From Erythrobacter sp. (GTDB taxonomy: Bacteria > Pseudomonadota > Alphaproteobacteria > Sphingomonadales > Sphingomonadaceae), in the NCBI RefSeq assembly GCF_030066995.1, contig NZ_JASJAP010000004.1, positions 186,001 to 250,000 on the forward strand: a stretch of DNA of 64,000 nt. Direction: 5' to 3'. The notes under the pieces are model-generated. The model was given only the letters and a program-made list of their open reading frames with translations. It did no database searches and was not told the DNA's origin. Positions 25,632 through 32,991 of the stretch are shown here, in pieces (positions within the stretch are counted from its first letter, which is position 1; each line of letters begins with the position of its first letter). Made by a program: the position numbers and the translations under genes.

Positions 25632-26159
25632 TCACGCGCGGACCTGTCCATCTGCACTCAATTGCAGCGCTTTGCTCAAGGCCCATGCTCCTCCGATGAG
25701 AAGGGGCAGCGATGTTAAGGACAAGATCGCTGCAAGCGCGGCGATACCCTCAAGCCGGATGAACTCACCCAGTTCGAACACCGAAGTTGCGCCGTCCGTG
25801 AGCGACGGAATGAGCGTGTTCAAGCCTGCCAGCAAGAGGATTGCCGCAGCAACAAAGAAGGATCGATCCACACGCCCGCAGGTCACGATCCATGCCGCCA
25901 AAAGAAATAAGACGACCACGGTTCCCGCTATGGCCGTGACTGCGAAGCCGCTTTGAGCCGACAGCATGCCGTATTGATAGCCGGAATAAGTCGGATCGAT
26001 CACACCACGCAGCGGCGCTGCCGAGTTGAACGATGCGTTGAGAACCAGAAAGGTCGCGCTTAGCCAGCCCATGAACGGCGCTTTGCGCGCAAGGGCGCGG
26101 GTGAAGACCATGACCGCGAACACAAAGCCGAACCCGATTGCAAGATATGGCCAGAACAT
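25632..26159 (-). CDS. Conserved-type membrane protein of unknown function
   Basis: I do not recognise this 175-residue protein. It has about five hydrophobic segments: residues 2-20, 31-45, 70-93, 103-117 and 138-160, with a short loop NSAAPLRGVIDPTYSGYQYG between the second and third. Hydrophobic pattern and codon use fit a real inner-membrane protein, and the ATG is clean. It converges on msrA with 18 bases between stop codons. No charged or catalytic motif indicates a role. Confidence 0.65.
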   Translation of the reverse strand: MFWPYLAIGFGFVFAVMVFTRALARKAPFMGWLSATFLVLNASFNSAAPLRGVIDPTYSGYQYGMLSAQSGFAVTAIAGTVVVLFLLAAWIVTCGRVDRSFFVAAAILLLAGLNTLIPSLTDGATSVFELGEFIRLEGIAALAAILSLTSLPLLIGGAWALSKALQLSADGQVRA

Positions 26160-26237
26160 AGGATATCCCCACCGCCTCAGTGTATTAAGTCACTATATCA
26201 CTCCAAAGTGGATTGCAAGTCGATGCCCCGTTTTTTG

Positions 26238-27488
26238 CTAAGGACGGCGCTTGAATCGAGCTACGAAAAACCCATCGAGCCCGCCCTCATCGCCCAGCAT
26301 TCCCGGATGCGTGCGCACCCAGCCTTCGGGTGTGGGTTTCAGGCCCGCTGGCAAATCATCGACGCGGATAGGCATGGGCGAGAGGTTAAAGGTCGCGTCG
26401 ATCCACTCCGCCTGCTCCTCGCCCTCTTCGCGCTCAAGCGAGCACACCGCGTAGATCAACGTACCGCCTGGCTTAAGCCAATCGGTTGCCCTGGCAATGA
26501 GCGCGCGCTGGATCTTGACCATCTGGACGATCTCTTGCGGGCGGATGCGGTGCAGCACGTCGGGATGGCGGCGACATGTGCCCGTCGCGGTGCACGGTGC
26601 GTCGAGCAGGATCGCATCAAACGCGTGCTTGGGCTCCCATTTCAGAGCGTCGGCGCGCACGGTCGACGATGTAAGACCGGTGCGCTTGAGATTGGCCTTG
26701 AGCGCATCGAGCCGCCGCTTGGAGATGTCGATTGCGGTGACATTCCAGCCGTTTGCCGCCAGCGCCATTGTCTTGCCGCCGGGCGCTGCGCACAGGTCGA
26801 GAGCGTGCCCCCTGCCCCCTCCCAAGACGGTCGCTGGAATGCTGGCGGCGAAGTCCTGGACCCACCATGCGCCCTCCTCATAGCCTGAGAGCTTCTCAAC
26901 CGGCGTTCCGCGCGGGACGCGAACGTGACCGGACGAAAGACTCATCCCGCCAAGCCGCGCCTGCCAGAGCGCGGTGTCCGCGGCGTTCTTGAGTCTGAGA
27001 TCCACCTCCGGCGGCTCGGTGAGACCGGTGGATGTGGCAGCGGCGCGCTCAGTCCCCCAGCGCACAACCACCTCAGCGGGAAGTGTGGGAACCCGAGGAA
27101 GCGCAACATTCCGCTTCATGAGCGTCGAAAAGACGCCGTGGGCAAGCCGCCGCGGACCTCCGGCGAGGAGCGGAAGTCCCGTCGCGATCACCGCGTGCGC
27201 GGGCGTCTCCAACCGCAAGGCCTGCGCCAACATCAGCCGCAGCACGCTGCGCGGCTTCGCGTCCTTGGGCAGCGGCTTTTGAGTGGCGCTGTCAATCAGG
27301 TGATCGAGGTCGATCAGCCAGCGTAACGCCTCCCCTGCAATCGCACGCGAAAGCGCCTTGTCGTTCGCGTCGCGCACATCGCGCAGGGCAGAGGGGGCGG
27401 CCTGCTCCAGCGTCTCGCCCCGGCGCAGCACGGCGTCGAGCAGCTTGAGCGCAGCGCGGCGCGCGTGAATCCCGGTGGGTTGGGCCAT
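26238..27488 (-). CDS. RsmB/NOP-family rRNA (cytosine-C5) methyltransferase
   Basis: S-adenosylmethionine-dependent RNA m5C methyltransferase, probably acting on 16S rRNA. The 416-residue protein has an N-terminal NusB-like RNA-binding domain (about residues 8-130) and a C-terminal catalytic domain with LDLCAAPGGKTMALA (motif I), the motif IV loop LLDAPCTATGTCRRHPDV and motif VI YAVCSLEREEGEE. Both functional Cys residues of the family are present. The ATG at 27486-27488 is preferred over an in-frame TTG ten codons upstream. It diverges from the DUF1674 gene, with 49 bases between start codons. Confidence 0.87.
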   Translation of the reverse strand: MAQPTGIHARRAALKLLDAVLRRGETLEQAAPSALRDVRDANDKALSRAIAGEALRWLIDLDHLIDSATQKPLPKDAKPRSVLRLMLAQALRLETPAHAVIATGLPLLAGGPRRLAHGVFSTLMKRNVALPRVPTLPAEVVVRWGTERAAATSTGLTEPPEVDLRLKNAADTALWQARLGGMSLSSGHVRVPRGTPVEKLSGYEEGAWWVQDFAASIPATVLGGGRGHALDLCAAPGGKTMALAANGWNVTAIDISKRRLDALKANLKRTGLTSSTVRADALKWEPKHAFDAILLDAPCTATGTCRRHPDVLHRIRPQEIVQMVKIQRALIARATDWLKPGGTLIYAVCSLEREEGEEQAEWIDATFNLSPMPIRVDDLPAGLKPTPEGWVRTHPGMLGDEGGLDGFFVARFKRRP

Positions 27489-27537
27489 TAAGGCCGCGAT
27501 AGCGACCCCTGAAACCAAGCGCCAGCGCGCGCGTTAA

Positions 27538-27714
27538 ATGGCTATGACCAAAAAGAAATCGGAAGCCGCCAAGAATTTCAAGAAGCCGGCGCACTGGACC
27601 AACGATCCGGCACCCGAACCCAAAGCTGTCGACCCTTTGAAGGGCGAACCGCGCGAAAAGTCTCCAACCCGCTACGGCGACTGGGAAAAAGACGGCATCG
27701 CCTGGGATTTTTGA
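27538..27714 (+). CDS. DUF1674 / SdhAF4-like small protein
   Basis: A 58-residue protein: a Lys/Ala-rich N-terminus (MAMTKKKSEAAKNFKKPAHW), a Pro/Glu linker, and the diagnostic C-terminus PTRYGDWEKDGIAWDF. That ending is the DUF1674 signature, shared with the succinate dehydrogenase assembly factor SDHAF4, which binds flavinylated SdhA. A role in complex II assembly is therefore inferred from the family. The first of two in-frame ATGs (27538, 27544) is used. The hairpin element starting at 27736 lies just downstream. Confidence 0.83.
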   Translation: MAMTKKKSEAAKNFKKPAHWTNDPAPEPKAVDPLKGEPREKSPTRYGDWEKDGIAWDF

Positions 27715-27735
27715 GTGACGGGTTTTCTGTTTCAT

Positions 27736-27980
27736 GATCGCCCATCCGGGCGATCGTCCTCGCTAGTCGTCCTCCGGGGAATCTTCTCCTGCGGACCCGC
27801 TGCGGGCGCGCAATCGCGCTTGCAAAATGATGGACTTCGTTTCGCACGATCAGGTGAGATAAGCGCTAAGGACGGTTTGCGGCAGCAAACCGCAAGGCCG
27901 ACCGGCCGCCCGCAGGTGCCCCGAAGCCGAAGCTTCGGCGTAGGGAACAGCACCGAGGATGCTCGCCCGGATGGGCGAGC
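27736..27980. repeat. 245-bp hairpin-rich element bounded by imperfect inverted repeats
   Basis: Both ends carry the same palindromic module in opposite orientation: GATCGCCC-ATCC-GGGCGATC at 27736-27755 and GCTCGCCC-GGAT-GGGCGAGC at 27961-27980, each extended inward by a related TCCTCG stretch (27757-27762; complement of 27954-27959). Inside are further dyads: CGGTTTGC-GGCA-GCAAACCG at 27873-27892 and the perfect palindrome GCCGAAGCTTCGGC at 27926-27939. No frame has credible coding content. It fills the space between two convergent genes (DUF1674 and the P450). It could be a MITE-like or REP/BIME-like repeat, a structured RNA, or a bidirectional terminator block. No second copy is in this window. 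Confidence 0.6.
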
Positions 27981-27985
27981 AAGAC

Positions 27986-29449
27986 TTAGAGACTCTTAAA
28001 CGTCACCTTCAGCCCGTCCTTGGGCTGGGGGATTGGCCAGGCTTGCCAGTCGGGCTTGTAATCCGTCCCGCCGCTCGTCGGTTCAATCCGATAGCGCTGC
28101 AGCAGCTGCGCCATCAGCACCTTGATCTGCATATACGCGAAATGAAGGCCCAGGCACATATGCGCCCCGCCCCCAAAAGGCACCCAGGCGTATTTGTGCC
28201 GCGCCTTCACCATCTCGGGCGTGAAGCGCATCGGATCGAAGGAGTAGGGGTTGTCCCAGTACTCCTCTGAGTGGTGCGTCCAGTGGATGTTGATGCCCAC
28301 CATCTGCCCGGCGGGGATATGATAGCCGCCAAACTCGAAATCCCGCAACGCGCGGCGCGGCATGGAGGGGACGGGCGGGATCAGGCGCAAAACTTCCTTG
28401 AAGATCATCTCGGTGAGCTCAAGCTGGCCAAGATGATCGTAATCGAGCGGTCGCGGGCTCCCCCCCGAACCGATTACGCCGTCCGGACCGCCGGTTACAG
28501 CCATGATCTCGTCGCGCATCTTCTCTTGCCACTCGGGCTTCGTTGCGAGGTGATAGATCAGCGAGGTGGCCGACGAGGTGATCGTGTCGTGCGCGGCCAT
28601 CATGAGAAAACTCATATGATCGACCACTTCGTCCACGGGCAGTAGCGAGCCATCTTCGCGTGTGGCGGTGGCGAACTGGCTGAACATGTCCTGCCCGCCA
28701 CCTTCGGCCCGCCTGCGATGGGTCTCGCGGGTCAGATAGTCGACCATGTAGGCGCGGCCATCGACGCCCCTTTTCATCTTCGTAAAGGGCAGCGGTTTGC
28801 GAATGGGTGCGACGCTTGCCTGAACCATGTCGACGAACGCCGTGTTGATCCGGTCTGCTTCGGGGCCCCATGGGATACCGAGAAAGCTGTCCGCAGCCAG
28901 ATCAAGCGTCAGCTGCTTGATGGCCGGTTGGAATTCCATCGCGCCTTCCCACTTGGCGGTTTCGCTTGCAATCCCGGAATTCAGCGCGCCCATGTAGTGG
29001 CGCATCGGCTCCGGCTTGAACGCAATTGACAGCGCGCGCCGATCTATCCGATGGTGATCGAAATCCATCAGCATAAGCCCACGCGGGAACAACTGATCAA
29101 GCACCGGGCCCCAGCCCTGCTCGGAAGAAAACAGCTTGTCCTTGTTGAACAGCACCAGCTCGTTAGCCTCGGCACCGATCAAGGACACGTGCCAGCCGCC
29201 AAAAGCGAAGCTTTTGTAAACCTTGCCATAAGTCTCGACCATGCGCCGGGTGAAGGCATGCGGATCGGCGAGCTGTGTGAAAGTGTTGCCGACGACCGGC
29301 CAGCCTTTTTCGCCCGGGACGTGCGCGATCGCATCGTCTGCCGGAATACCCTCGCTCCAATGCGCAAACGGGGACGCCTTCAGTGGGCCTGTCTTGTCCG
29401 GCGCTGCGGTGGCTTGCGCCTTCTCGGCTTGGGGGGCCAGGGTTGCCAT
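27986..29449 (-). CDS. Cytochrome P450
   Basis: Heme-thiolate monooxygenase of 487 residues without membrane anchor, so probably soluble. Landmarks: I-helix MMAAHDTITSS (oxygen-activation motif), K-helix FKEVLRL with the ExxR pair, the PERF-like region FDPMRF, and the heme loop FGGGAHMCLGLHFA with proximal ligand Cys432. The N-terminal part (VVGNTFTQLADPHAF, FGGWHVSLIGAEANELVLF, LMLMDFDHHRIDRRAL) resembles P450s of the CYP120/CYP26-like branch that act on retinoids or similar lipids, but substrate is not determinable. The stop codon is six bases from the hairpin element. It is 113 bases downstream of the ferrochelatase gene on the same strand; no ferredoxin or reductase gene is nearby. Confidence 0.92.
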   Translation of the reverse strand: MATLAPQAEKAQATAAPDKTGPLKASPFAHWSEGIPADDAIAHVPGEKGWPVVGNTFTQLADPHAFTRRMVETYGKVYKSFAFGGWHVSLIGAEANELVLFNKDKLFSSEQGWGPVLDQLFPRGLMLMDFDHHRIDRRALSIAFKPEPMRHYMGALNSGIASETAKWEGAMEFQPAIKQLTLDLAADSFLGIPWGPEADRINTAFVDMVQASVAPIRKPLPFTKMKRGVDGRAYMVDYLTRETHRRRAEGGGQDMFSQFATATREDGSLLPVDEVVDHMSFLMMAAHDTITSSATSLIYHLATKPEWQEKMRDEIMAVTGGPDGVIGSGGSPRPLDYDHLGQLELTEMIFKEVLRLIPPVPSMPRRALRDFEFGGYHIPAGQMVGINIHWTHHSEEYWDNPYSFDPMRFTPEMVKARHKYAWVPFGGGAHMCLGLHFAYMQIKVLMAQLLQRYRIEPTSGGTDYKPDWQAWPIPQPKDGLKVTFKSL

Positions 29450-29562
29450 AGTCTGTCTCTGCTCTCTCCAAAGCGGCTATTCAGGATACTCTGCGGTCCA
29501 AGCGTGCTAGCGCGATCTCGGTTCGCAAATGCAACTGACACAAGTGTAAATTGAGTTAAGCC

Positions 29563-30597
29563 TCAAATCCAGCCCGAAAGCTCGCGCCGGATCATCGCTT
29601 CGAGCATGGCGACACCGCTTTGGCTGACGTTCAGGCAGCTGAGCACCGCGTAATCCTCGCCGCCCGCTTCGACGAACTCATCCCGGCCTTCAAGCGCGAG
29701 CTCTTCGAGCGTTTCAACGCAGTCCGCCGAAAAACCTGGCGCGGCGACGACCAGGCGCTTCGTGCCTTTCTCGCCCTCGGCGATCAGCGTGTCATCGGTG
29801 GCGGGTTCAAGCCATTTGGCCGGGCCGAAGCGCGACTGGAACGTCGTCTCGAAGCGCACGCCGTCAAACTCGGGGCGATCGGCCAGACGCTCGCGCAACA
29901 GGCGCGCGCTCTTGTGGCAGTGGCAATGGTAGGGATCGCCCCGTTCGAGCGTGCGCTGCGGCATTCCATGAAAGGAGTGGAGCATCACTTCCGGCTTGAA
30001 ATCGAGCGCCGCGACCTGACGAGTCAAATCCTCGGCCAGAGCATCGAGGTAGTTCGGATCGTCGTGATAGGGAGGCAAAAAGCGCAAGGCGGGTTGCCAA
30101 CGCATGTCCCCCAGAACGCGGGCGACCTCGTCAAACACGGTGGCCGTCGTTGCCGCGCAATACTGCGGGTAGAGGGGCGCGACGAGAATGCGATCACACC
30201 CCTTTTGTGTCAACGCGACCAGCCGTTCTTCAATCGAGGGCTTTCCGTAACGCATGGCGTAGTCGACCACGATGTCCTCACCCAAATCCTCGGCGATCGC
30301 CTCGGCCTGACTCGCGGTAATGTCGGCAAGAGGGGAGCCGCGGTCTGTCCAGATCTTGGAATAGGCTTGCGCGCTCTTTTGCGGGCGCGTGTTGAGGATG
30401 AGGCCGCGCAGGATCGGCTGCCAGGCGATCGCGGGCAGCTCGATCACCCGCCGATCCGAAAGGAATTGCTTGAGATAGCGCTTGACGGAGGCGGGATCAG
30501 GCCCGTCGGGCGTGCCCAGATTAACCAAAAGCACGCCAACACTGCCGCTCTTTACGGGCGAGTGATCGTTCGGGAGGTGCTGCTTTTGCCAGGTCAT
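29563..30597 (-). CDS. hemH: Ferrochelatase
   Basis: Inserts Fe2+ into protoporphyrin IX as the last step of heme synthesis. The 344-residue protein has VLLVNLGTPDGP near the N-terminus, the active-site segment LHSFHGMPQRTLERGDPYHCHC with His210, and PGFSADCVETLEE with Glu295. Length is normal. It sits directly upstream of a cytochrome P450 gene on the same strand, a heme consumer, though the 113-base gap leaves room for a separate P450 promoter. Confidence 0.95.
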   Translation of the reverse strand: MTWQKQHLPNDHSPVKSGSVGVLLVNLGTPDGPDPASVKRYLKQFLSDRRVIELPAIAWQPILRGLILNTRPQKSAQAYSKIWTDRGSPLADITASQAEAIAEDLGEDIVVDYAMRYGKPSIEERLVALTQKGCDRILVAPLYPQYCAATTATVFDEVARVLGDMRWQPALRFLPPYHDDPNYLDALAEDLTRQVAALDFKPEVMLHSFHGMPQRTLERGDPYHCHCHKSARLLRERLADRPEFDGVRFETTFQSRFGPAKWLEPATDDTLIAEGEKGTKRLVVAAPGFSADCVETLEELALEGRDEFVEAGGEDYAVLSCLNVSQSGVAMLEAMIRRELSGWI

Positions 30598-30678
30598 TGC
30601 ACGCTCAACGCGTTAAATCGCATCTGTATCCGCCAGACCAAAACCGCAAGCACCGGAAGGGAGAGGCGAGGATTCCGG

Positions 30679-32991
30679 TCATAGGCCATCTGAAAGTAGG
30701 GGCAGGCGACGAAGGCGCAAGCCTGTGGCGGAATAGAACGCGTTGGCGATGGCAGGAGGGGCGACAACCACGCCCAATTCGCCCGGGTCAGCAGGCGGTG
30801 CGGTACTGGCGATGAAGGCCACTTCGATCTTGGGGCAATCGCTCAGTTTCGGAAGCCCCAAATCTTCGTAGCGAAAGCTGGTGGGCAGGCCCGCGCGCCA
30901 ACGCGGCGCAGCGCCCATCGCAAGGCCCAGCCCGAATATGAGGCCGCCTTCAATCTGTTGCAGCGCAATGTCGCGGTTGATGATGCGCCCGATATCGACC
31001 GCGACCGAAAGACTGGTCACACGAACGCCTCCCTCCCCAGCGCGCGCGGTCGCCACGCATGCGATCCGCCCGCCGGCTTGTGCGCTGCCGATGCGATGGC
31101 ATGCCAGCCCCTGCCCGCTCTGGTCCGCGCCGCCGTTCCACTCAGCCAACCGCGCCGCGCGCTGGAGGCAAGCCGCAAGGCGCGCATCATCGCCCAACAT
31201 CGAAATGCGATAGGACAGCGGCTCGCGGTTATGCGCGGCGGCGATCTCGTCGATAAAGCTTTCCATCGCAAAAGCGGTGTAACTGTGAGCGTTGCCGCGC
31301 ACGCGGCCAGTGGGGAGGCCGATCTCGACCGGAACGTGATCGACCGCCAGGCGCGGCACACGGTAGGGCGGCACCGCGCCTTCGCAGGCCAGAACGTCCT
31401 TTTCCCCCTCACTCTCGCGGATTGCAGCCCAGCAGGTGCGCTCGCGAAACAGGCGTTCGCCAAATTCCAGCGTGGAGGGCGGGCAGGCAATGCGCACGCG
31501 CAAGGCATCGATGCTGCCCGACGAGGCTCTGGATGCGCCGAGTGGCCTTGCAAGCTGCGCGCCCAGCAACATGTGAGCGGGCGCGCGCGGGCGGCTGCGC
31601 ACCAGCTCGTCGCGACGCGGCCATGTGAGCTGCACGGGCGCGCCGATCTCGCGCGCGATCAGCGCGACCTCGATCGCGTGATCGTGTTCGAGCCGCGCGT
31701 CATAGCTGCCACCTGCGGGCATGGGATAGAGGGCTACATCCTCGGGCCGGATACCCAGCGCCTTGGCCGCGGCCGTGCGCGCTTGTTCGGGCGCTTGCGC
31801 AGCCATCCACAATTCGAGGCGCCCCCCTGCGTAGCGCGCGGCGGCGCTGGCGGTCTCCAACGGCGCGGCGAGCGCGGGTTCAACCTCGTAACGCCGCGCA
31901 AAATCCACGCGCTGCAAAGCGTCGCCGCCCTTCTCATTGAGGCCTTTCTCGGCAATTCGAAAGGAGGGGCCGCCGTTCAGCGAAGTGCTCAGCCGCCCTG
32001 CAATTTCGCCGCTTTCGACCGGATAGAGCGTCTTGAACTGTGGCTTCATCGCCTTGAGCGCTTCGTTGGCGGTCCACCAGGTGGTTGCAGCGACCGCAAC
32101 CCATCGCTTTGAACGCACGACACCCTTGATGCCTTCGAAGCCCCGGGCGCGATCCACGTCAAAACCAGTAAGCTGCGCGCCATGGTTGGGGCCATGGCGG
32201 ATCGAGGCGTAGACCATGCCAGGCAAGCGCACATCGCTTGCATATTGATGGCTGCCGTCGACTTTGGACGGCAAGTCGATGCGCGGATGCGCAAGGCCGG
32301 CGCTTTCCGGCCCGGTGAGCACGTCTGAGAATACCACCTCTGCGGGCGGATCGGGACGCAAGGGGGGCGGGTCGGGCGGCACTCGGGTGGCCGCGCCCGC
32401 CGCCAGCTCGCCGAACGCGGCGCGCTCTTGCCCCAGGCGTACAAGGCCGCCGGAGACCTCGCACTGCTCCCAATTCGCGCCCCAGCGCTCGGCCGCTTCC
32501 ATCGCCAGCATCGCCCGCGCCCCCGCCGCCGCGATCCGGCACGGCTCTTCGTAGGCAGCAATGGACGTGCCATCGGCCGTCGCGTTGAACCGCCGGGCTG
32601 TCGCCAGCCTTTCAGCCAGCGATGCATCGAGACTTTCGGACACGCCTTGCAAGAGCGGATCCCACAGATGCAGCCAGCGACTGGCCAGCGGGACATTGGC
32701 GTAAGCACCCGAGACCGCGGCGGGTTCGACCGCAATCTGGCGCCAATCCGCACCCAGCTCGTCGGCAATTATCTGCGGCAGAAGCGTGGTGATCCCCTGC
32801 CCCATCTCGCATTGCGGGACCGCGACCGTGACAACACCGTCCTCCCCGATCTTGAGCCACGCATCGAAGGCGAATTCTCCCTCGGCGGGGGCGAGCGGAT
32901 TGGGCACGCTGCGCGGCACCCACCACCACGCCACCAGCAAGCCACCCCCGAGGGCCGCTCCTGTTGCAAGGCCGCGGCGCGAAATCTTCAT
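30679..32991 (-). CDS. Tat-exported xanthine-dehydrogenase-family molybdopterin subunit (IorB-like)
   Basis: Large molybdenum-cofactor subunit of the isoquinoline 1-oxidoreductase/aldehyde oxidase type, 770 residues. A twin-arginine signal (ISRRGLATGAALGGGLLVAW) opens the protein, implying periplasmic export of the folded holoenzyme. The body has two Ald_Xan_dh_C2-like halves with QCEMGQGITTLLPQIIADEL, the LPGMVYASIRHGP hammerhead segment and a C-terminal PGELGVVVAPPAIANAFYSATG block whose Glu738 corresponds to the catalytic Glu of the family. The partner [2Fe-2S] subunit IorA, normally adjacent, is absent here. It begins three bases after the stop of the Mrp ATPase gene, so the two are probably one operon. 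Confidence 0.85.
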   Translation of the reverse strand: MKISRRGLATGAALGGGLLVAWWWVPRSVPNPLAPAEGEFAFDAWLKIGEDGVVTVAVPQCEMGQGITTLLPQIIADELGADWRQIAVEPAAVSGAYANVPLASRWLHLWDPLLQGVSESLDASLAERLATARRFNATADGTSIAAYEEPCRIAAAGARAMLAMEAAERWGANWEQCEVSGGLVRLGQERAAFGELAAGAATRVPPDPPPLRPDPPAEVVFSDVLTGPESAGLAHPRIDLPSKVDGSHQYASDVRLPGMVYASIRHGPNHGAQLTGFDVDRARGFEGIKGVVRSKRWVAVAATTWWTANEALKAMKPQFKTLYPVESGEIAGRLSTSLNGGPSFRIAEKGLNEKGGDALQRVDFARRYEVEPALAAPLETASAAARYAGGRLELWMAAQAPEQARTAAAKALGIRPEDVALYPMPAGGSYDARLEHDHAIEVALIAREIGAPVQLTWPRRDELVRSRPRAPAHMLLGAQLARPLGASRASSGSIDALRVRIACPPSTLEFGERLFRERTCWAAIRESEGEKDVLACEGAVPPYRVPRLAVDHVPVEIGLPTGRVRGNAHSYTAFAMESFIDEIAAAHNREPLSYRISMLGDDARLAACLQRAARLAEWNGGADQSGQGLACHRIGSAQAGGRIACVATARAGEGGVRVTSLSVAVDIGRIINRDIALQQIEGGLIFGLGLAMGAAPRWRAGLPTSFRYEDLGLPKLSDCPKIEVAFIASTAPPADPGELGVVVAPPAIANAFYSATGLRLRRLPLLSDGL

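Follow-up and report, generated by a model that had tools for sequence, protein, structure and literature searches.

Folded composite repeats next to stop codons in Erythrobacter-like bacteria

The element between the DUF1674 and cytochrome P450 genes

The window analyzed here is a stretch of 64,000 nucleotides (G000:C3:186001-250000) from the 3.30-Mb genome of an Erythrobacter sp., referred to as the own genome (G000). A 245-bp element in this window lies between two convergent genes, DUF1674 and cytochrome P450, whose stop codons are 21 and 5 nt away from its outer ends. It is a head-out dimer of two half-units, and its features, numbered by window position, are as follows.

27541..27714, + strand: DUF1674 gene (PF07896), with 21 nt between the end of its stop codon and H1 of A
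27723..27735, + strand: T-rich lead TTTTCTGTTTCAT; the G004 orthologue has a similar lead
27736-27980: whole element, 245 bp, head-out dimer of half-units A (left) and B (right)
27736..27825, + strand: type A half-unit, covariance model match of 55.7 bits (G000:C3:213736-213825)
27736..27755, + strand: H1 of A, 8-bp stem with loop ATCC; left end GATCGCCC-ATCC-GGGCGATC
27757..27766, + strand: type A linker TCCTCGCTAG; TCCTCG of the left end at 27757-27762
27769..27796, + strand: H2 of A, GTCC...GGAC around GGGGAATCTTCTCC, paired by eye; several other copies carry GGGGAATCTTCCCC in place of GGGGAATCTTCTCC
27808..27819, + strand: H3 of A, GCGC-AATC-GCGC
27826..27872, no strand: centre between the half-units, of low conservation against two aligned copies
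27873..27892, - strand: H4 of B, dyad CGGTTTGC-GGCA-GCAAACCG; another stem in G004
27890..27980, - strand: type B half-unit, covariance model match of 90.4 bits (G000:C3:213890-213980), this half-unit being itself a row of the model that scores it
27896..27907, - strand: H3 of B, GGCC-GGTC-GGCC as read on -
27915..27954, - strand: S2 of B, in which GGTGC (27950-27954) pairs with GCACC (27915-27919), both read on -, and encloses H2
27926-27939: H2 of B, dyad GCCGAAGCTTCGGC
27954..27959, - strand: type B linker TCCTCG, seen at the right end as its reverse, CGAGGA
27961..27980, - strand: H1 of B, GCTCGCCC-ATCC-GGGCGAGC as read on -; right end GCTCGCCC-GGAT-GGGCGAGC
27986..29449, - strand: cytochrome P450 gene (PF00067); its stop codon is 5 nt from H1 of B

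A sequence-only reading of this DNA had described the two ends as the same module in opposite orientation, with internal dyads at 27873 and 27926 and partly compensatory T/A to C/G differences between the ends. Re-reading of the sequences agreed on each point: the inverted arms are 31 nt long, 87% complementary and separated by 191 nt, the dyads occupy 27873-27892 and 27926-27939, and the A/T to C/G difference of the end stems is present in both arms. Two features go beyond that description, namely that the ends carry different inner modules, with linkers of type A (TCCTCGCTAG) on the left and type B (TCCTCGGTGCTGTTCC) on the right, and that both ends adjoin stop codons. The + strand of 27730-27990 folds at -139.6 kcal/mol, compared with -103.6 +/- 5.1 in 200 shuffles (z -7.0), and no shuffle equals it.

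A half-unit reads, in order, T-rich lead, H1 (8-4-8), TCCTCG with the type-specific linker, H2, CTGCGGGCG, H3 (4-4-4), CTTGCG and H4. Across the family, H1 has an 8-bp stem and a 4-nt loop, mainly ATCC or CTCC. Type C and possibly type D half-units were found elsewhere, outside the window copy. Those of type C (L180, L103, L104, L111) have a TCCTCGCTCA-like linker and share the core and the H3 pattern with A and B; the one in L180 stands at a gene end whose orthologue in L187 carries type B. The D-like unit, in which GCGAGGATAGCCAAG adjoins a CGCAAGGCC core, was seen in L058 (490-590) and, downstream of the P450 stop, in L110.

Pairing, distribution and position of the copies

Pairing is kept while the stem letters vary widely, both from copy to copy and between orthologous sites. 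In an alignment built with MAFFT without fitting to the structure (A1), 95.7% of cells are paired, double changes occur at 13 of the 20 pairs, and the 171 double-change cells compare with 54.7 +/- 5.0 in shuffles (0 of 500 reach the observed value) and with 11-33 in slid versions. These figures come from 56 of 64 half-units, the other eight having been dropped by eye, mostly for a shifted or weak H1, which favours pairing. The search that used the linkers and ignored H1 did not depend on the model and involved no choice by eye; it took the best of four offsets, with duplicates and locus ends dropped. At least six of the eight H1 pairs were found in 168 of 177 B cases and in 24 of 25 A cases, H1 was perfect in 129 of the 177 B cases, and the 168 B hairpins contain 71 distinct left arms. 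The selection on structure suggested by the sequence-only reading is supported by the excess of double changes.

The same reading had named, as evidence that would count against it, a single copy with no conservation in relatives, which is excluded by the copies in the own genome and the matches within the genus. BLAST of the element against its own genome gave 22 matches, of which three are self-matches of the element or of its inverted halves; in all, 19 half-units (E up to 1e-3) were located at 12 sites, seven of which hold dimers. The own genome aside, BLAST of the element matched 23 of 24 same-genus genomes and one of 16 genomes from other genera of the order. A covariance model of the B half-unit (R1, 56 sequences) matched all 24 same-genus genomes and none of the 16 from other genera. 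G000 and 13 same-genus genomes supplied its rows, which are those of A1, and matches there are partly by construction; the other 11 genomes matched gave no row to the model. The number of R1 matches ranges from at least 3 to at least 41 per same-genus genome, except for G002 with one weak match, and copy numbers from R1 are lower bounds, with stricter filters and up to 111 (genus set) or 23 (order draw) candidates scored per genome. In an even draw of the order, R1 matched 38 of 196 genomes (own included), all in one family and in 13 of 63 genera.

A pattern scan of named genomes returned 30 stretches, whose titles name Erythrobacter, Porphyrobacter, Aurantiacibacter, Alteraurantiacibacter, Altererythrobacter, Qipengyuania and Croceibacterium, together with Blastomonas marina and unnamed members of Erythrobacteraceae, Sphingomonadales or an alphaproteobacterium; Erythrobacter longus and Erythrobacter sanguineus are among the named carriers. 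No match to the element was found in plasmid collections, phage collections or a distant blastn search. The B linker is present in five IMG/VR contigs, of which L090 (494-14630) was read for gene content: half-units lie beside its genes, and of its 44 ORFs of at least 120 aa seven were searched and five matched, including a terminase, a portal protein, a prohead protease and an Rcc01698-like tail protein. In our reading, this gene set suggests a gene transfer agent cluster and not a phage.

The position of the copies was surveyed in 72 regions of nine genomes, taken from the R1 matches listed and the own-genome matches, with 109 half-units in total; genes were called with our own dicodon script, which misses RNA genes. 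By these calls, 35 of the 80 clusters occupy convergent gaps, 41 tandem gaps and 4 divergent gaps. After removal of three half-units overlapping a called gene and two facing another half-unit, 87 of the 104 outermost heads face a gene 3' end and 17 a 5' end. For the 3'-end heads, the median distance from the stop codon is 10 nt, and 62 of the 87 start within 15 nt. Half-units often stand alone (49 of 109); of the 29 close pairs, 27 are head-out, two tandem and none tail-out, and in 15 of the 27 head-out pairs the model matches are 60-68 nt apart. Pfam searches of ten called proteins, nine from genes next to elements of the own genome and one an ORF of L198 whose call covers an element, indicated unrelated ordinary genes; the L198 ORF had no Pfam match and is probably a false gene call. 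The family is a lineage-specific set of scattered folded DNA repeats, located mainly right after stop codons in Erythrobacter-like bacteria.

The T-rich lead before H1 ends at about -13. At least six T in the 14 nt before H1 were counted for 143 of 192 heads, whereas three control stretches further upstream gave 14, 6 and 3, and over the same heads the letters from -4 to -1 are T (0.86), T (0.82), G (0.54) and C (0.77). In some copies, L203 among them, the lead is at the same time the T-run of a probable intrinsic terminator, with candidates at 26 of the 192 heads, several of them doubtful. The copies in L203, L007, L083 and L218 lie after such a T-run.

Turnover at single sites and the molecule that is read

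Of 25 genomes searched, 13 gave a close P450 match, and in these the P450-DUF1674 gap was read. The full A-B element is present in G000 and G004, whereas in G009 the two stop codons overlap with nothing between them, an empty site. Behind the P450 stop, G006, G008 and G011 carry a type C half-unit; G012 has a D-like unit, and three of the 13 genomes (G007, G010 and G011) have a separate CGTCATTGCGAG repeat pair; no A-B, C, D-like or CGTCATTGCGAG unit was seen in the gap of G001, G002, G003 and G014. A second empty site was found at an FtsJ-like/DUF6969 gene pair: a dimer occupies the gap in G000, and in G021 the two stops are 12 bp apart. The FtsJ-like gene of G022 and of G001 is flanked by different genes, with no element immediately after it. 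As relatives have empty sites (G009, G021), copies have been gained or lost. No target duplications were noticed by eye at the two sites with empty relatives.

Many element sites are common to several species. Even so, the H1 arm is the same in only 3 of 28 orthologous head pairs, though the neighbouring proteins are about 60-100% identical; in this count, sites common to three genomes enter three times, and in seven further pairs left out of it (L210, L224, L212 and the type C of L180) the arms also differ by eye. At the orthologous site of G004, H1 of B is GTGCCCGC-ATCC-GCGGGCAC, so that GCTCGCCC is replaced by GTGCCCGC with full compensation, and the linkers are unchanged. Types A, B and C replace one another at the same orthologous site. 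At one site the element of G004 aligns better when inverted, with scores of 99.5 vs 60.5 against G022, 75 vs 47.5 against G003 and 66.5 vs 39 against G011, which may reflect either an inversion in place or a separate insertion.

The mispairs of H1 bear on the molecule in which the structure is read. Among 115 distinct H1 (920 cells), C-A mispairs number 27 and G-U 9 (p 0.004), while the acceptor and T stems of the 24 tRNAs ending in CCA, among 26 distinct tRNAs in the loci, have 16 G-U in 288 pairs and no C-A. H3 has one G-U and two C-A, too few to tell. In the linkers, with one variable position left out, G-to-A changes amount to 1.3% per G compared with 2.6% per C for C-to-T; they show no G-to-A excess that would account for the C-A mispairs of H1, though the linkers, being constrained themselves, are an imperfect control for mutation bias. 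Judged from the mispair spectrum relative to tRNAs, sense RNA alone is unlikely to be the target of selection; a better fit would be DNA in folded form, the opposite strand or hairpin-templated copying.

The first loop base is largely shared among the copies of a genome. In 12 genomes with at least five H1, it is the same in 89% of within-genome pairs compared with 43% of between-genome pairs: it is C in 12 of 12 H1 of G022 and A in 19 of 19 of G078, and mixed in G084 (4 G, 3 C and 1 T). This uniformity suggests that the loop may be recognised by one factor per genome; alternatively, plain descent of two lineages could have set the loop letter.

Relation to known repeats and possible explanations

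A search of 27400-28300 of the window against Rfam 15 gave no match up to E 1. In eight further loci no match fell over the located half-units; the matches there were one tRNA and four below the gathering score (mir-188 twice, mir-532 and IRES_Bip). No published description of this repeat family was found in the literature searched. A REP count for Erythrobacter cryptus is given in the part of PMC12306157 available to us, and the available part of PMC3733652 names REPs inside genes of 'E. lithoralis', taken for Erythrobacter litoralis; given these mentions, such repeats may have been counted there, without a description as this unit in the parts concerned.

Among known systems, the CGTC REPs of Di Nocera et al. 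2013 (PMC3733652) are similar in several respects. As described in the available part of that paper, they have 8-9 bp stems of heterogeneous sequence, 4-5 nt loops and predominantly HH dimers, lie next to where convergent genes end (<20 bp away in S. wittichii), mostly in alphaproteobacteria, and have no associated transposase. The present family shares the stem and loop size, the 3'-end position, the heterogeneous stems, the lack of an associated transposase (Y1_Tnp and RVT_1 searched) and the head-to-head dimers, with the reservation that 'head' in that paper may differ from the head defined here. Compared with the same partial description, it differs in lacking the CGTC tag, in showing no CCA tail, in the letters on both sides of H1, in its first stem pair (G-C in 51 of 56, A-T in CGTC REPs) and in size, as a half-unit of about 110 nt with three further hairpins and conserved linkers contrasts with 20-40 bp. 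With GTAG REPs and BIMEs, which are described in part in PMC3733652, it shares inverted hairpin pairs between or after genes and variable stems with kept pairing. Unlike the GTAG REP/RAYT system, it has no GTAG tag at the hairpin foot, H1 being mostly preceded by T-T-G-C (192 heads), and no Y1 transposase was found in 57 of 61 genus genomes, the own one included.

BOX and ERIC are modular or palindromic repeats, larger than REPs, foldable and dispersed between genes. The element resembles them, as generally known, in being modular, foldable and dispersed, and differs in its head-out dimer at stop codons, an arrangement they are not known to have. Of the three readings offered from the sequence alone, MITE-like, BIME-like and structured RNA, the BIME-like one fits best: inverted palindromic pairs between genes are what was found, with 27 of 29 close pairs head-out and dimers at gene 3' ends. 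A MITE in the narrow sense, with fixed terminal inverted repeats, is not supported, because the end stems vary among copies, with 71 distinct left arms over the 168 B hairpins. We filed the family as a new, larger, composite REP/BIME-like one outside the GTAG and CGTC superfamilies.

The search for a mobilising enzyme covered Y1_Tnp and RVT_1. Y1_Tnp gave no match in G000, the same search being positive in 5 of 14 control-set genomes including E. coli and Caulobacter, and of 61 genus genomes 4 gave a match to the Y1 transposase (RAYT family), among them G007 and G013, which carry the element as well. Reverse transcriptase (RVT_1) gave no match in G000 and was found in 10 of the 31 genus genomes searched. 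Either enzyme as the mobiliser was rejected, as most element carriers lack them. G002, with one weak element match, has the most Y1_Tnp matches in the genus (six), which may be chance.

The explanation we prefer, with confidence about evenly balanced for the whole, is a lineage-specific composite REP/BIME-like element. A trans-acting factor would recognise the folded strand through the loop and linkers, and the structure would be read as single-stranded or extruded DNA, not only as 3' UTR RNA. Copies would rarely be seeded into gene-end DNA, at T-rich tracts and sometimes just past an intrinsic terminator, and then be inherited, with stems exchanged through hairpin-templated copying or conversion between copies. 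For the host, the effect would most likely be of the REP type, a mostly tolerated boundary at gene 3' ends; by analogy, gene-end roles of REPs such as mRNA 3' end protection and ribosome slowing near stops are possible. Against this explanation, the sites are long-lived, so that an RNA-level host function could be the main cause of retention.

A rival reading is a structured 3' UTR RNA, in which the half-unit would be co-transcribed with the gene and would protect the mRNA 3' end, slow ribosomes at the stop codon or be processed into a small RNA. The closeness of the heads to stop codons agrees with it, as do the conserved loops and linkers, and the available part of PMC12306157 reports that ribosomes stall at E. 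coli REPs located no more than 15 nt from a stop. The structured RNA proposed from the sequence alone keeps some probability, although the window stretch lacks an Rfam match, some copies lie past the T-run of a likely terminator, and the H1 mispairs (G-U 9/920 vs 16/288; C-A 27 vs 0) are unlike those of tRNAs; we consider this RNA possible but somewhat unlikely. Repeated, convergent origin of a transcription terminator, or of a gene-end signal working in both directions, would account for the distribution over convergent and tandem gaps. However, the linkers common across the family point to homology, the copies read have their T-rich stretch before H1 and none after it, contrary to the intrinsic pattern of a GC hairpin followed by a T-run, and a consensus scan of window positions 26000-32000 found 0 sites vs 5.8 in shuffles, making this origin highly improbable. 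A classical MITE, a non-autonomous DNA transposon that is bounded by terminal inverted repeats and mobilised in trans by an IS transposase, would match the 31-nt inverted ends and the empty sites in relatives; with its variable end stems, frequent solo half-units (49 of 109) and no target duplications noticed by eye, the family makes this the least likely of the readings weighed.

REPs without a known transposase pose an open problem of spread and of retention at gene ends. The composite REP/BIME-like family offers from 1 to at least 41 model matches per same-genus genome, site turnover, empty sites and a mostly genome-set loop letter. Because the loop letter is mostly set by genome and the turnover of sites is visible, the partner factor could be searched for through co-variation, and the mispair spectra allow RNA-level and DNA-level selection to be compared. 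A bolder version, which we regard as doubtful, is a third REP system besides GTAG/RAYT and CGTC: an invertible multi-hairpin element of gene ends whose loop would co-evolve, genome by genome, with a putative factor reading folded ssDNA and whose stems would be rewritten by hairpin-templated copying.

In L103, L105 and L108, a repeat pair CGTCATTGCGAG...CTCGCAATGACG lies between the P450 and DUF1674 stops, and these are probably CGTC REPs that share the gene-end gap in three genomes.
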